The notes under the pieces: generated by a model | Databases searched by the model: none | The model's input: the letters and a program-made list of their open reading frames with translations, nothing else | What the model was told of the DNA's origin: nothing | Part shown: positions 44,660 to 56,352 of the stretch, piece after piece | Position numbering within the stretch: position 1 is the stretch's first letter | Layout of the letters: every line of letters begins with the position of its first letter | Made by a program: the position numbers and the translations under genes | NCBI GenBank assembly: GCA_021228405.1 | Contig: JAJQRF010000002.1 | Coordinates: forward strand, 496,001 to 560,000 | Source of the DNA: Pyrinomonadaceae bacterium | GTDB taxonomy: Bacteria; Acidobacteriota; Blastocatellia; Pyrinomonadales; Pyrinomonadaceae | Direction: 5' to 3' | Length of the DNA stretch: 64,000 nt

Positions 44660-44847
44660 AGGCATCGGATACGTTGGATGACTTATAAATATACGTCATC
44701 CAACGTATATTTTGGCGTATCCGGACGTATAGGATAGGTTGGTAGACGTATCCTATACGTCGTCGGACGTATAAATACACGTTTCAAGACGTATAAATAT
44801 ACGTTTGGAACGTCGTCGGACACGTTCGGTAACGTATATTTATACAT
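44660..44847. repeat. Cluster of ACGTATA-type palindromes after asnB
   Basis: About 190 bases made almost wholly of ACGTAT/ATACGT words in nested inverted repeats: perfect 14-base arms at 44669-44682/44695-44708, perfect 12-base arms at 44725-44736/44749-44760, and the palindrome ACGTATAAATATACGT near 44788-44803. The minus strand is open through the cluster only because of its composition. No gene is credited. Confidence 0.8.
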
Positions 44848-50921: not shown

Positions 50922-53690
50922 ATGAATCTTCAATCTTTTACCCAAAATTTAATTACCGCAAGCAAAAAAGAACGTCGAAAACTGCTCATAGAGAATCTCG
51001 AAATTTGTGATGAGGAATTTGCTAAAGCCTTACAGCAAATCTGTTACGAAATTTGGACGAGCGAACCGCAGAAAGTTTCGGCGATCGTGGCGGTTTTGCG
51101 CGAAGCGTTTGAACTGACGCGGAACAAACTGCTCGAAGCCTATGCCGAATGGACGGAAGCGATCGAAAATCTGGTCGGCGGGCGGCTCGAAACTTGTATT
51201 CATTTTCTCGATGACTCCGAAAAATCCTTTCAGAAACTGAACAAAACGCACGAAGCCGCGACCACGCAGACGAGCAAGCTTTACGCGCTCGCATTGCTCG
51301 GTCGGTATGATGAAGCGATCGAATGCGGTTTGCGGGCGCGCGACATTTTTCTGGCGCATAACGACGTTTATTCGGCGGGAAAGATCGAAAACAACATCGG
51401 AAATCTTTACTGGCGGCGCGATTTTTACCGTGAATCGGAACCTTTCCTGGAATCGGCGCGGGCGCGTTTTTTGCAGATCGACGATCAACGACAGCTGGCG
51501 ATGGTCGAAAATTGTCAGGCGTTCGTGAAGGCATTGCAAAATCAGTTTCGTGAAGCGGAAACGATTTATAGATCGGCGTTAAATCGGGCGAAGGAAAACA
51601 ATCTGACCGTGACCGAAGCCGAGATCGAAACGGGAATGAGCAATCTTTATCTGTTTCAGGGGCGTTTCGAGCTTGCGCTGAAATTTATGGAAAGCTCGCG
51701 GCAGAAATACGATCTTTTGCAGATTCCGCAACAAACCGCGAATTGCGAACTCGAAATCGCCGACATTTATCTCGAACTCAATCTAGTGCCCGAAGCCGTC
51801 GAATTTTACAGGAAAACCGACGCAAAATTTGCCGAACTCGGAATGCAGGCAGAACGGGCGCGGAGTTTGCAAAATCACGCAAAAGTCTTGTTTTTACTGA
51901 ATGAAACCGAAAAAGCCAGGCAACTGGCGGAAGCTTCGGAGCGAATTTCTCGGGCGGAAGGAAATAGAATCGCGGCGGCGGCGGCAAAACTCACGAAGGC
52001 GACGATCCTGTTCAGGGAAAAAGGCTTTGACGAAGCGCAAAGAGAAACCGAAGCAGCTTTACAAATCTTTGAAGAAGGCGGAAATCTGCGCTATGAATTG
52101 TCGGCAAAACGGCTTCTCGGCGAAATTTTTGCGGCACGAAACGAAACAGTCCAAGCAATCGAAGTTTTGGAAAAAACGCTTGCCGAAGCGCGTGAAAATT
52201 CTCTTCAAATCGCTTATCTTTGCCTCGTTTCGCTCGGAAGATTAAAGGATTCGGAAGAATATTTTCTGCAAGCGGTCGAGATTGTGGAGAATTCGCGTTC
52301 GGCACTTTCGGCGGAAGAATTTCGGACGGCATTTCTGGCGGATAAAATTACCGTTTACAACGAGCTCGTGAAGATGAGCCTTCGCCGAAACGAGCTTAAA
52401 AAGGCATTTTCCCGGCACGAACGTTCGCGTTCGCGTTCACTGCTCGATTCGATAAACTTTGCGGATAACGATTTTTTGCAGAGCGACAAATTGAGGAATT
52501 TGCGTAATGAATTGAACTGGTTTTACAACCGCATCAATCGCGAGTCGGCGAGCGGTCTGGAAGCGCGAACGACGGTCAACGAACTGCGCCGCGAAGCCGC
52601 TGAAAGGGAAAAGCAATACGCCGAGCTTTTCCGCCGTGAAAAAATAAACGGAAAAAATCCGCTCGGCGGACATCATAAATTCGAGTTGAAGGATTTGCAG
52701 AAAACGTTGAAGGACGCGAATCTAATCGAATTTTTGATACTCGACGGAAAATTTGCGGCTTTTGTTGTCGGCGAAAACAGATTTGAGTTCGTTCCCGAAC
52801 TCGCCGACGAAGAAATTTTGAAAACGGAAGTCAAACAATTTCTGTTTCAGATAAAAACGGCGCGTTTTCAGGATAAATTGACGCAAGAAAACCGCCGCAC
52901 GGCTTTTGCAAGGCTGATGCGCCACGCACAAAAAATCTATGAAATGATGATCCGTCCGCTTGAAAAGTTTATCGACCGTGAAAAAACCGTGATAATTCCT
53001 GCCGGAATTTTGCATTATCTTCCGTTTCAGGCTTTACACGACGGCGAAAGATTTTTCGTGGAAACGAAACAGATAAGCTACGCACCGAGCGCATCGATCT
53101 GGCAAAATTTGCAGGAAAACGAAATTTTTTCACCGAAAACCGCTTTGCTGGTCGGCGTGGCGGATAAATTTACGCCGAATGTGAAAACGGAAATCGAAGT
53201 TTTGAGCAAACTTTTCGAGGAAACGGAAATACTTGCCGACGAAAAGGCAACGCTTGAAAATTTGTCGAAAAAAATACATAATTCGGATGTCCTGCATCTT
53301 GCTTGTCACGGAAAATTCCGCCCCGATAATCCGTCTTTTTCATCGCTCGGTCTGTTTAATGAAAATTTGACCGTAAAGGATGCACAAACCCTGAATCTGA
53401 AAGGTCGGGCGGTCGTTTTGAGCGCGTGCGAAACGGGCTTGAACAATGTCGTTTCGGGCGAGGAATTGGTCGGTTTGGCAAGCGGCTTTCTGGCGGCGGG
53501 CGCGTCTTCGCTAATAATGAGTTTGTGGACGGTGAATGATGCGGCGACGCTCGAAATGATGAAAAATTTTTACGCACTTTTGCTCAAAGGCAACGGTGCG
53601 GCAAAGTCTTTGCAGAGTGCGCAATTGCGCTTATTAGAGAAAAATCCGCATCCTTATTTCTGGTCGCCGTTCGTTTTGACCGGAAATTAA
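50922..53690 (+). CDS. TPR-CHAT protease
   Basis: A 922-residue protein. Residues about 1-460 are TPR repeats (for example LYALALLGRYDEAIECGLRA, MSNLYLFQGRFELALKFM), residues 470-640 a charged helical linker, and 640-922 a CHAT domain. Caspase-like catalytic residues lie in HLACHGKF (His796) and LSACETGLN (Cys836), and the end PYFWSPFVLTG is the CHAT signature. CHAT proteases are clan CD cysteine peptidases. Related TPR-CHAT in type III-E CRISPR cleaves a partner that restrains a sigma factor. Here a subtilase, an ECF sigma factor and an anti-sigma factor follow on the same strand. No cas genes. No signal peptide. Confidence 0.92.
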   Translation: MNLQSFTQNLITASKKERRKLLIENLEICDEEFAKALQQICYEIWTSEPQKVSAIVAVLREAFELTRNKLLEAYAEWTEAIENLVGGRLETCIHFLDDSEKSFQKLNKTHEAATTQTSKLYALALLGRYDEAIECGLRARDIFLAHNDVYSAGKIENNIGNLYWRRDFYRESEPFLESARARFLQIDDQRQLAMVENCQAFVKALQNQFREAETIYRSALNRAKENNLTVTEAEIETGMSNLYLFQGRFELALKFMESSRQKYDLLQIPQQTANCELEIADIYLELNLVPEAVEFYRKTDAKFAELGMQAERARSLQNHAKVLFLLNETEKARQLAEASERISRAEGNRIAAAAAKLTKATILFREKGFDEAQRETEAALQIFEEGGNLRYELSAKRLLGEIFAARNETVQAIEVLEKTLAEARENSLQIAYLCLVSLGRLKDSEEYFLQAVEIVENSRSALSAEEFRTAFLADKITVYNELVKMSLRRNELKKAFSRHERSRSRSLLDSINFADNDFLQSDKLRNLRNELNWFYNRINRESASGLEARTTVNELRREAAEREKQYAELFRREKINGKNPLGGHHKFELKDLQKTLKDANLIEFLILDGKFAAFVVGENRFEFVPELADEEILKTEVKQFLFQIKTARFQDKLTQENRRTAFARLMRHAQKIYEMMIRPLEKFIDREKTVIIPAGILHYLPFQALHDGERFFVETKQISYAPSASIWQNLQENEIFSPKTALLVGVADKFTPNVKTEIEVLSKLFEETEILADEKATLENLSKKIHNSDVLHLACHGKFRPDNPSFSSLGLFNENLTVKDAQTLNLKGRAVVLSACETGLNNVVSGEELVGLASGFLAAGASSLIMSLWTVNDAATLEMMKNFYALLLKGNGAAKSLQSAQLRLLEKNPHPYFWSPFVLTGN

Positions 53691-53791
53691 TATTTTTTTG
53701 AAAATCTTGTATTTTTTTACGGATTTTGCGGACTAAAGTATCAGGGATAATTTTACTTATTCAAAATATACTAATTTTGGGGTCACTTTTT

Positions 53792-55099
53792 ATGCGGCTG
53801 AAAACGAATACCGGCTTATTCAGTTCAATATTTTTGCTTCTGACAATTTTCTCAGCGCAGATGTTTGCGCAAAACACGGATAACTTATTTCTTCAAAGAG
53901 AAGTGATCGTCAGATTGAATAATCCTGCCGATGCGAACGCGGTTGCCGCGCAATACGGTCTGGACGCACAACCGCTCGGACGAATGGGCACGCTTCCGCT
54001 TTACCGGATGCGGATTTTAGGCGATACACCCGTCAGCCAGATCGTTTCACAGCTTCAAAATGACCCGAATCAGAGAGTTTCGCTTGCCGAGCCTAATTAT
54101 ATCGTCGGTTCGCCTTCGGCAGGACAAGTTCCGTGGAGTTTGGGCGGTTCGTGGAGCATCGGAGGTTCGTGGAGCATCGGCGGAAGCGTCAAAGGTTATT
54201 CGGTGCAATGGATGAAAAGCCGCATCAATCTGACCTCGGCGCAAGAAGTTTCGCGCGGCGCAGGTGTCAAGGTTGCCGTGCTCGACACGGGCATCGACGC
54301 GACGCATCCGATCTTTGCGGGCAAATTGATTCAGGGATACGATTTCGTCGATAACGACAACGATCCGGGCGAAATCGGAAGTTACGGGACGGGTGCTTTC
54401 GGACACGGAACACACGTGGCGGGAATCGTGGCGATGATCGCGCCCGACGCGAAGATTATGCCGATCCGAGTGCTCGATCCGAACGGTGTCGGCGATATTT
54501 GGCGGCTTGCAACCGCGCTCGATTTCGCTTTGAATCCTGACGGAAATCCAATGACCGACGACGGCGCGGATGTCATTAACCTGAGCCTCGGAACGACACA
54601 GAGAAGTGCCGTTATCCGCCGTATTTTAGAAGCCGCGACCAATGAATTTCCGACTCCGCCCGATCATTTGGGAGATTATCCGAATCTCGAACACACCGAA
54701 GCCGTGATCGCCGCCGCCGCCGGAAATACGGGCGATTCGACACGCATTTATCCTGCCGCCGAATCCATCGACGGGCTGATCGCGGTCGGTGCAAGCAATT
54801 CGGCGGACGATCTTGCAGATTTTTCGACGCGCGGCGAATGGGTACAGGTGATTGCGCCGGGCGAGCGGATCGTTAGTTCCGTCCCGGGCGGAAGATTCGG
54901 TATGTGGAAAGGAACTTCGATGTCTGCTCCGATCATCGCGGGCGTTGCGGCATTGATAAAATCCAAATACCCGAATCTGAAGCCGTCGGACATTCACGAA
55001 CAAATCCGGCGTTCGGGCGTGGCTTCGAGAACTGCGGGCATACCGTTTACACCGCGCCGCGTCGATGCCGAAAAATCTCTGATCTTAAGACCTTTTTAA
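53792..55099 (+). CDS. Secreted subtilisin-like serine protease (S8)
   Basis: A 435-residue protease with a signal peptide (TGLFSSIFLLLTIFSAQMFA, then QNT). An I9-like propeptide (about 35-110) and a Gly/Ser/Trp repeat (GGSWSI three times, 115-135) precede the S8 domain. The triad is Asp165 in AVLDTGID, His205 in GHGTHVAG and Ser376 in GTSMSAP, with AAAGN as the oxyanion strand. ATG at 53792 is chosen because it gives a clean signal peptide. It lies 101 bases after the TPR-CHAT stop and 33 before the sigma gene. It is likely exported and self-processed; its substrate is unknown. Confidence 0.93.
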   Translation: MRLKTNTGLFSSIFLLLTIFSAQMFAQNTDNLFLQREVIVRLNNPADANAVAAQYGLDAQPLGRMGTLPLYRMRILGDTPVSQIVSQLQNDPNQRVSLAEPNYIVGSPSAGQVPWSLGGSWSIGGSWSIGGSVKGYSVQWMKSRINLTSAQEVSRGAGVKVAVLDTGIDATHPIFAGKLIQGYDFVDNDNDPGEIGSYGTGAFGHGTHVAGIVAMIAPDAKIMPIRVLDPNGVGDIWRLATALDFALNPDGNPMTDDGADVINLSLGTTQRSAVIRRILEAATNEFPTPPDHLGDYPNLEHTEAVIAAAAGNTGDSTRIYPAAESIDGLIAVGASNSADDLADFSTRGEWVQVIAPGERIVSSVPGGRFGMWKGTSMSAPIIAGVAALIKSKYPNLKPSDIHEQIRRSGVASRTAGIPFTPRRVDAEKSLILRPF

Positions 55100-55132
55100 G
55101 CAAAATTCCGACGGCGATTTTCCACCCGACAA

Positions 55133-55693
55133 ATGTATCCAAACGACGAAGAATTAGTCGCAGAGTGCCGTTCAGGAAACGAGAACGCCTGGGAATCGCT
55201 CGTCTTAAAATATCAAAACCTGCTTTTCTCGGTTCCGCGCCGCGCCGGATTAAATAAGGATTTAGCTTCGGACGTGGTGCAGGAAGTTTTCACAACACTT
55301 TTTGAAAAGCTCGATCTGCTTGAAAAACCCGAATTTTTACGCGCCTGGCTTTTGACCACGACGCGCCACAAAACGATTCATCTAATCCAGCGCGAGTTGC
55401 GCCGCAAAGCGAAATCAATCGACGAAGACGAGGAGAGCGAATATGCTTTTCAGATTCCCGACAAACTGCCGCTGGCAGACGAAGTTTTGATCCAATTTGA
55501 AAAACAAAAGCAAATCGAAGAAGCCTTTTCACATCTTGAACAAAGATGCAGTCGGCTTTTAATGATGCTTTATCTCGAAAAGGAAAAATATTCGTATGCG
55601 GAAATTGCGGAAATTCTGGACATACCGCTCGGAAGCATCGGACCGACGCGGGCACGATGTCTGCAAAAATTAATGAAATTTATGCCCGAATAA
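55133..55693 (+). CDS. ECF-type RNA polymerase sigma factor
   Basis: A 186-residue sigma-70 family protein with regions 2 and 4 only. Region 2 reads YQNLLFSVPRRAGLNKDLAS, VVQEVFTTLF and LRAWLLTTTRHKTIHLIQ. Region 4 is a helix-turn-helix (LEKEKYSYAEIAEILDIPLG, then IGPTRARCLQKLM). It directs RNA polymerase to a special promoter set when its anti-sigma factor, probably the next gene, is released. ATG at 55133, 33 bases after the S8 stop. Candidate target promoters were not identified. Confidence 0.92.
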   Translation: MYPNDEELVAECRSGNENAWESLVLKYQNLLFSVPRRAGLNKDLASDVVQEVFTTLFEKLDLLEKPEFLRAWLLTTTRHKTIHLIQRELRRKAKSIDEDEESEYAFQIPDKLPLADEVLIQFEKQKQIEEAFSHLEQRCSRLLMMLYLEKEKYSYAEIAEILDIPLGSIGPTRARCLQKLMKFMPE

Positions 55694-55764
55694 ATTTTCG
55701 GTGTATTTTTTTTGCGGTCAAACTGACTTAACTACTGGAAGCCGCGTTCCGCTCGGAAAATTTT

Positions 55765-56352
55765 ATGAAACACATCGAGTTTGAAAAACTCCTGGAAAAA
55801 TTTGAAGGTTTGCTCACCGAAAATGAATCGCGTGAGATTTCGGCGCATCTTGCCGGATGTCAGGATTGTGCGGCACAATCCGCTAAACTCGAAAAGTTTT
55901 TTTCCTACGCGAACGACAAACCGCAGGAAGAAGCCGGGCAAGCTGTGACGGCGCGCCTTTTGAATATTTTTCAGCCGAAAAAACCTTTTGAGGTAAAGAA
56001 AGAGTCTTTCGGAAAAAGATTGTTAGCGGTTCTCGCCTTTGACGATTGGCAAACGGCACTGAACGAGAGATTTACTTTTTCGGACACACGCCAATTGCTT
56101 TATAAAGTCGAAAACTATGACATCGATCTGCGTTTAAGTTTTATCGGCGACAAATGTCGGTTGAGCGGTCAAATTTTGCCTGACTGCGAGGGCGTGGCGA
56201 TTGAAATATCGTCCGGAAACGTCCGCGAAAAAACCGAATTGAATGAAAATTGCGAATTTGTTTTTCCCTTGGTTTCACAGAATGTTTACGATTTGCGCAT
56301 CCATTTCAAAGATTTTTTCATAGAAATCCCCAACTTTTCCCTTCTCACCTGA
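55765..56352 (+). CDS. Zinc-containing anti-sigma factor (ZAS-like), soluble
   Basis: A 195-residue protein. The N-terminal 40 residues carry HLAGCQDC (His28, Cys32, Cys35), the ZAS/zf-HC2 pattern that binds an ECF sigma factor. The rest (about 100-195) is beta-rich (YDIDLRLSFIGDKCRLSGQI and VYDLRIHFKDFFIEI), perhaps a ligand or protein-binding sandwich. There is no membrane segment, so it is a soluble anti-sigma and not a transmembrane one. It lies 71 bases after the sigma gene. It is the likely target of the TPR-CHAT protease (inference). Confidence 0.82.
   Translation: MKHIEFEKLLEKFEGLLTENESREISAHLAGCQDCAAQSAKLEKFFSYANDKPQEEAGQAVTARLLNIFQPKKPFEVKKESFGKRLLAVLAFDDWQTALNERFTFSDTRQLLYKVENYDIDLRLSFIGDKCRLSGQILPDCEGVAIEISSGNVREKTELNENCEFVFPLVSQNVYDLRIHFKDFFIEIPNFSLLT

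Follow-up and report, generated by a model that had tools for sequence, protein, structure and literature searches.

The window analysed here is a stretch of 64,000 nucleotides from a Pyrinomonadaceae bacterium (GenBank assembly GCA_021228405.1, contig JAJQRF010000002.1). Positions 50922-56352 of it carry four genes in a row on the + strand, which encode a TPR-CHAT protease, a subtilase (S8), an extracytoplasmic function (ECF) sigma factor and an anti-sigma-like protein. The original prediction, made from the letters of this DNA, had put four genes on one strand there, and that is where all of them are. They are, with near certainty, a conserved cassette and not a chance neighbourhood. We argue that the cassette is a regulatory switch in which TPR-CHAT would act on the anti-sigma to free the sigma. 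We consider this an evenly balanced call, and the sigma binding, the cleavage, the signal and the regulon are all putative. Among the papers listed by full-text searches of the open-licence literature, at most 20 per search, no description of the four-gene cassette was seen.

Recurrence of the four genes

The search for the anti-sigma covered 60 family genomes, of which 21 have a match at E <= 0.001. It also covered 162 genomes of the class, where 152 have some match but many of those listed are of the zinc-finger half alone, and 396 phylum genomes, of which 51 match at E <= 1e-9, some of them partially. The neighbourhoods of the stronger matches were taken and annotated with profiles from the cassette genes. 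In 69 of 103 anti-sigma loci, genes for ECF, CHAT and S8 share the strand and lie no more than 7 kb away, and many of the others end at a contig edge. If a flank of 5.5 kb or more is required on each side, 60 loci remain, and 52 of these have the full same-strand set. Five of the remaining eight are without a same-strand S8 gene only, and three are without more. The survey was also run from the protease, with relatives found by CHAT patterns alone and ranked by their likeness to cassette CHATs. The best 80 of at least 545 confirmed CHAT relatives from genome contigs were used. Among these best 80, 46 loci have a flank of 3 kb or more on each side; ECF, anti-sigma and S8 genes share the strand in 31 of them, 11 have part of the set and 4 have none. 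The original prediction had proposed a neighbourhood survey and named a lack of co-occurrence outside close relatives, along with a lack of cleavage, as what would refute it. The first of these was not observed, since the four-gene unit is found again and again far outside the close relatives.

The source genome itself gives a baseline. It has 12 S8 matches, 48 ECF-type sigma matches and 16 CHAT matches, the last in 15 neighbourhoods with the window included. Two of its 12 S8 genes are in its two cassettes. There is no S8 profile match in its 13 non-cassette CHAT neighbourhoods, and by Pfam positions none of its non-cassette CHAT genes has an S8 gene within 10 kb. In 5 of the 13 (L042, L044, L047, L050, L052) a weak ECF-type sigma match, below the cut-off, lies about 1.4 kb or less from CHAT. 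The link between CHAT and sigma factors may be wider than the four-gene module.

The 105 complete cassettes were reduced to 100 non-identical ones. They include L174 and L181 (with overlapping long open reading frames (ORFs), doubtful), and omitting these two changes no conclusion. By label, 1 is our own, 34 are from the same family, 21 from the same class, 12 from the same phylum and 20 from named Acidobacteriota. Six more are Chloroflexota, 3 are Actinomycetota, 1 is a Pseudomonadota metagenome-assembled genome (perhaps mis-binned) and 2 are unlabelled. It must be noted that most cassettes come from metagenome bins, where mis-binning is possible. All 3 from Actinomycetota are Rubrobacter or Rubrobacteraceae, and one of them is an isolate, R. 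taiwanensis (L212). Partial sets are found as well: Ktedonospora formicarum (L235) has CHAT and anti-sigma only, and a planctomycete bin (L236) has CHAT, S8 and weak anti-sigma matches.

There are six gene orders among the 100 cassettes (63, 25, 7, 2, 2 and 1), which means the content is kept while the order changes. The commonest is ECF-anti-sigma-CHAT-S8 with 63 and the second is ECF-CHAT-anti-sigma-S8 with 25. The order of the window, CHAT-S8-ECF-anti-sigma, is found in 7. The second cassette of the source genome (L048) has the commonest order, is without the zinc motif of the anti-sigma and is 29-48% identical to the window's. The same six cassettes (L056, L058, L133, L137, L141, L142) are closest to the window's anti-sigma, subtilase and sigma, and four of the six are among the best seven for its CHAT. 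Pairwise distances of the four proteins correlate with a Spearman coefficient of 0.51-0.67, against a maximum of 0.117 in 200 permutations, and their nearest neighbours agree in 41-55 of 100. Shared descent alone can explain this correlation. On a CHAT tree of 176 rows built by a quick method the cassette label is clustered: it changes 15 times, where shuffled labels change 34.8 times on average. None of 500 shuffles is as low, and without truncated loci there are 5 changes. The cassette CHATs are not one clean clade on this tree, and long branches meet.

The proteins of the cassette

The protease (50922..53690, +) has 922 aa and is separase/Csx29-like according to Pfam, its AlphaFold2 model and structural matches. 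Its TPR superhelix, presumed to be the sensor part, spans about aa 69-460 (51126..52301, +) by Pfam TPR matches and the model helices; TPR_12 scores 91.6 bits. The CHAT domain follows at aa 668-922 (52923..53687, +; PF12770, 201 bits). The predicted catalytic residues His796 (53307..53309, +) and Cys836 (53427..53429, +) had been called intact before, and both are confirmed. Every one of the 100 complete cassettes has both residues, which implies that protease activity is probably under selection. Asp873 of CHAT is also invariant in all 100. The model of the whole chain has a predicted local distance difference test score (pLDDT) of 88.9 and a predicted template modelling score (pTM) of 0.81. 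Its top structural match is Csx29 (8eey, Foldseek 3.3e-17), which aligns over 530 residues of model residues 181-922 with Z 33.5 at 10.4 Å. Separase (5fc2) aligns with the protease domain (Z 27.3, 310 aligned, 3.0 Å), and DdvA with 562 residues (Z 21.4, 9.2 Å). In a comparison with RRNPP-type peptide receptors, the TPR part aligns with Rap (Z 24.0) and NprR (Z 21.8), and equally with LGN (Z 23.9). By the best 19-residue Kyte-Doolittle mean, with a line drawn at > 1.8, 2 of 100 CHAT proteins exceed it and there is no strong membrane segment.

The likeness to separase does not extend to its specificity. Helical repeats precede the protease domain in both, and the protease domains superpose. The residue of separase that reads the P1 arginine is an Asp, which the part of PMC9729208 drawn on here equates with Lys670 in Csx29, and it aligns with Leu877 of the window protease. 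Among the 100 cassettes this position holds Ala 57 times, Thr 16 times and Arg 6 times. A separase-type Arg pocket is rejected, since the S1 residue is not acidic, and the cleavage specificity is not transferable from separase or Csx29. The genetic partner differs from that of separase too: here it is an anti-sigma.

The anti-sigma-like protein (55765..56352, +) looks soluble and has 195 aa. It looks like a class I anti-sigma domain (ASD) protein by its family profile, its AlphaFold2 model and Foldseek, and it would inhibit the sigma. Against PDB sequences the family profile matches RsiW (1.3e-6), the ASD of DdvA (2.9e-4) and ChrR (about 8e-3), and its second half matches NOMO2 (5.4e-4) among solved structures. 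The Pfam model zf-HC2 scores 21.4 bits against a gathering score of 22.2. The structural model (mean pLDDT 85.2, pTM 0.56) has four ASD-like helices at aa 6-68, a low-confidence stretch at 71-80 and an Ig-like sandwich at 84-192. ChrR is its first Foldseek match (E 4.1e-3) and also ranks first after realignment (Z 8.1, 59 residues, root-mean-square deviation 6.0), a modest to fair match. The Ig-like part has generic sandwich matches alone, with Z < 8. That the anti-sigma is without a membrane segment, as the original prediction had it, is borne out. The best 19-residue hydrophobic mean is 0.57 in the window protein, and 0 of 100 cassettes have an anti-sigma above 1.8.

The zinc-motif residues His28, Cys32 and Cys35 (55846..55869, +), placed by alignment, are kept at 0.89-0.90 among the 112 of 141 distinct segments that have a residue there. 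Arg102 (56068..56070, +), in a loop, is invariant in 141 of 141 distinct segments, and Gly135 and Phe165 are invariant in the 140 segments that have them. Mean pLDDT over residues 101-110 is 72. Speculatively, Arg102 could be where the protein is contacted or cut. The idea that it is a P1 site of the separase type was set aside, again on the S1 residue.

The sigma factor (55133..55693, +) has 186 aa and matches TIGR02937 with 75.3 bits against a cut-off of 42.9. PF04542 (Sigma70_r2) scores 34.6 against 24, the Pfam models for region 4 score slightly below their cut-offs, and the PDB matches include RpoE, SigH and SigW.

The subtilase (53792..55099, +; PF00082, 152.3 bits) has 435 aa when it is read from the preferred ATG at 53792; a TTG start at 53726 is also possible. 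Its predicted triad is Asp165, His205 and Ser376 in the numbering of the 435 aa ORF. When 126 S8 domains from the loci fetched were aligned, all 126 had the Asp and the His, and 125 had the Ser, with one gap. The window protein has a signal-peptide-like N-terminus, as do 113 of 123 complete S8 ORFs of these loci by a simple rule and no dedicated predictor. It thus looks like the secreted serine protease that had been predicted. Near-perfect WSxGGS repeats lie at 54134-54187, between the prodomain region and the catalytic domain. Similar WSIG or WSVG repeats are found in related subtilases and are absent from the distant subtilases compared.

A proposed proteolytic switch and its alternatives

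Control of a sigma through a protease that acts on its inhibitor is a known kind of regulation, and the cassette would be a variant of it. The nearest precedent in its logic is Craspase (Cas7-11/gRAMP, Csx29, Csx30 and CASP-sigma), where, as the part of PMC10028731 used here reports, Csx29 cuts the sigma inhibitor Csx30 in type III-E CRISPR. The cassette shares the TPR-CHAT fold with its His/Cys dyad, and it encodes an ECF-type sigma and an inhibitor alongside the protease. Proteolytic relief of the inhibitor is shown for Csx29/Csx30 and proposed for the cassette. The differences are that the inhibitor here is an ASD/Ig protein without a Csx30 match and that a secreted subtilase belongs to the cassette. 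The Csx29 model NF041237 scores 78.3 bits on the window protease against a cut-off of 300. RAMP-family genes (PF03787) have 0 matches in the source genome, which is 96.46% complete so that a miss is possible, and were detected in 4 of 14 control genomes. With the Csx29 model so far below its cut-off and no RAMP-family gene found, the cassette is not a Craspase, and at most it works like one. The original prediction of a "Craspase-like arrangement without CRISPR" is partly supported, by the recurrence of the set, the soluble look of the anti-sigma, the invariant protease dyad, the Csx29-like fold and the secreted look of the subtilase.

Among studied proteins, the one that most closely connects an anti-sigma with the TPR-CHAT fold is DdvA from Myxococcus xanthus (PDB 8ROT, 8RW5), which the original prediction did not name. 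DdvA has been described as an anti-sigma that spans the membrane, and its CHAT-type fold is part of a single chain of 991 residues. DdvA/DdvS and the cassette share the pairing of an anti-sigma and a TPR-CHAT-type fold with a single ECF sigma. DdvA, however, is one transmembrane protein, and in the cassette the anti-sigma and CHAT come from two genes and neither has a strong membrane segment. According to the portion of PMC12288465 cited here DdvS controls a CBASS/CRISPR defence island, so a role of the cassette in defence is possible. In the RseA/DegS, RsiW and CRISPR Lon systems a protease likewise acts on a sigma inhibitor or related partner, but the proteases there are of membrane or Lon type (PMC10028731, in the part used).

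We argue that the switch would work as follows. The N-terminal helices of the soluble anti-sigma would hold the ECF sigma. The TPR superhelix of the cytoplasmic TPR-CHAT would receive a signal, and the CHAT site would open. CHAT would then act on the Ig-like C-terminal half of the anti-sigma or on the linker, most likely by cutting. With the anti-sigma disabled, the freed sigma would transcribe its targets, and the secreted subtilase may be part of the output or of an extracellular signal loop. We favour this scenario because the cassette recurs, the catalytic residues are invariant, Craspase and DdvA are precedents, and neither the anti-sigma nor the protease has a membrane segment.

Several points weigh against it. 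The zinc pattern, sought among residues 1-130 of each called ORF, is missing in up to 40 of 100 anti-sigma ORFs. This is an upper bound, with long false N-termini (L197, L211, L212, L174, L181) counted as being without it. In 21 of these 40, out of the 100 cassettes, the anti-sigma is short (156-175 aa) and the first ASD helices are absent. Because of these short or pattern-less anti-sigmas, it is uncertain that every member binds the sigma. No Csx30 chain is among the PDB matches of the anti-sigma profile at E up to 10, and the P1-Arg residue of separase is without an acidic counterpart (Leu877). A few anti-sigma relatives with long flanks have no CHAT, for example L161 and L171. The apparent CHAT/anti-sigma fusion in L174, a 1215-residue ORF, is rejected as an assembly-gap artefact, since it contains runs of X (Ns), one of them between both parts. 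Autoregulation is unsupported, because a bipartite 5-mer/4-mer search found no convincing common upstream motif. The best motif is in 7 of 35 upstream regions of the family (shuffle maxima 6, 4, 3, 3, 3) and in 7 of 95 overall (shuffle maxima 5, 5, 5, 4, 4), and wrong start codons could mask a motif.

The rival that survives best is an effector operon, which we regard as possible, if rather unlikely. The anti-sigma would sense a cue itself, either by zinc and redox chemistry or through a ligand of the Ig domain. The sigma would activate its own operon, with TPR-CHAT as an effector inside the cell and the subtilase as one outside. The commonest order suits this, being the usual sigma/anti-sigma pair followed by its targets, but the order varies and CHAT stands between ECF and anti-sigma in 25 of 100. 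The zinc-motif residues are retained in most members that have that region, and redox sensing is a frequent role of soluble zinc ASDs, as far as the portion of PMC7406223 used here goes. However, where the zinc pattern may be missing Arg102, Gly135 and Phe165 are invariant all the same, and no convincing operon promoter motif was found in the search above.

Another rival makes the anti-sigma a securin-like inhibitor. Its sandwich would bind and block CHAT, sigma bound to the ASD would relieve or report the block, and the substrate of CHAT would be elsewhere. The structural relative separase is kept inactive by bound securin, according to the part of PMC9729208 drawn on, and the invariant residues are in the linker and the sandwich and not in the sigma-binding helices. 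For Csx29, the best studied bacterial relative, the sigma inhibitor is nonetheless the substrate in the account available, and we think this rival improbable.

The neighbours of the cassette bear on what the signal of the proposed switch might be. The biggest recurrent neighbour cluster of the 100 cassettes contains SBP_bac_5 oligopeptide-binding proteins, with 27 loci that are mostly outside the class. In 22 of 100 cassettes such a gene shares the strand of ECF and lies directly upstream of it; in 9 of these the two overlap by 4 bases. Among the 25 cassettes with the order ECF-CHAT-anti-sigma-S8 this arrangement is found in 20. The gene is not found directly upstream in 70, and 8 have too little flank. 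Two class cassettes (L108 and L121) have an SBP_bac_5 gene, and none was found beside the window cassette or in the 14 own-genome CHAT neighbourhoods fetched. At L201 the binding protein is confirmed by Pfam, and so are a permease (BPD_transp_1) and two ABC ATPases, of which one carries an oligo_HPY tail. At L229 Pfam confirms an importer permease; the other importer loci are profile matches. A protein of mostly 640-770 aa is beside the cassette in 18 of 100, all family members and L048 included. The one tested, at L048:10692-12857, has FG-GAP repeats and a CHRD domain by Pfam. These binding-protein genes, the accompanying proteins and the secreted subtilase point to external proteins or peptides as a theme.

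The SBP gene directly before the sigma in 22 cassettes suggests a peptide-responsive form of the switch. The secreted subtilase would free peptides outside the cell, the importer would bring them in, TPR would bind them, and CHAT would cut the anti-sigma, perhaps near Arg102, so that the sigma is turned on. This is a tentative extension that we consider unlikely as it stands. If true, the cassette would do with a caspase-type protease what peptide quorum sensing does in Gram-positive bacteria, and its sigma logic would be related to that of Craspase without CRISPR being involved. A nutritional module, in which the cassette governs external protein digestion and peptide uptake and TPR-CHAT is merely a regulator of feeding, would fit the signal-peptide-like subtilases, the binding-protein genes upstream of ECF in 22 cassettes and the importer permease and ATPase genes of several loci, but the 14 largest neighbour clusters (partly Pfam-annotated) have no further recognised peptidase family except a second S8 and the 70 cassettes without a binding-protein gene directly upstream include the window, so we hold it to be very improbable.

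If the proposed switch is true, a sigma-controlling TPR-CHAT switch would be a general signalling module in several phyla and not a CRISPR peculiarity. In that case type III-E might have taken its protease from this stock. The cassette supplies testable partners for a large, little-studied bacterial family of TPR-CHAT proteases, and it ties these to secreted proteolysis and, in many cassettes, also to peptide uptake.

Surroundings of the cassette

The outside genes upstream of the cassette are a fatty acid desaturase and a radical SAM protein, and the one downstream is a polysaccharide deacetylase on the opposite strand (all by Pfam). None of them is part of the cassette. A PADLOC scan of the four cassette proteins matched the protease to PDC-S67 (3e-5) and TPR models, and the S8 gene to subtilase (3.5e-26) and to IetS, a defence subtilase model (2.1e-6). 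It gave no match for the ECF sigma or the anti-sigma. No CRISPR-like array was found within 44-64 kb of the window at the settings used. Four imperfect copies of a 26-mer resembling ACGTATAAATATACGT lie between two genes at 44671-44847. Elsewhere in the class, the cassettes L110, L114 and L117 have a DUF5666 and/or CusF-like gene between the ECF and anti-sigma genes, and in L110 a subtilase also bears DUF5666.

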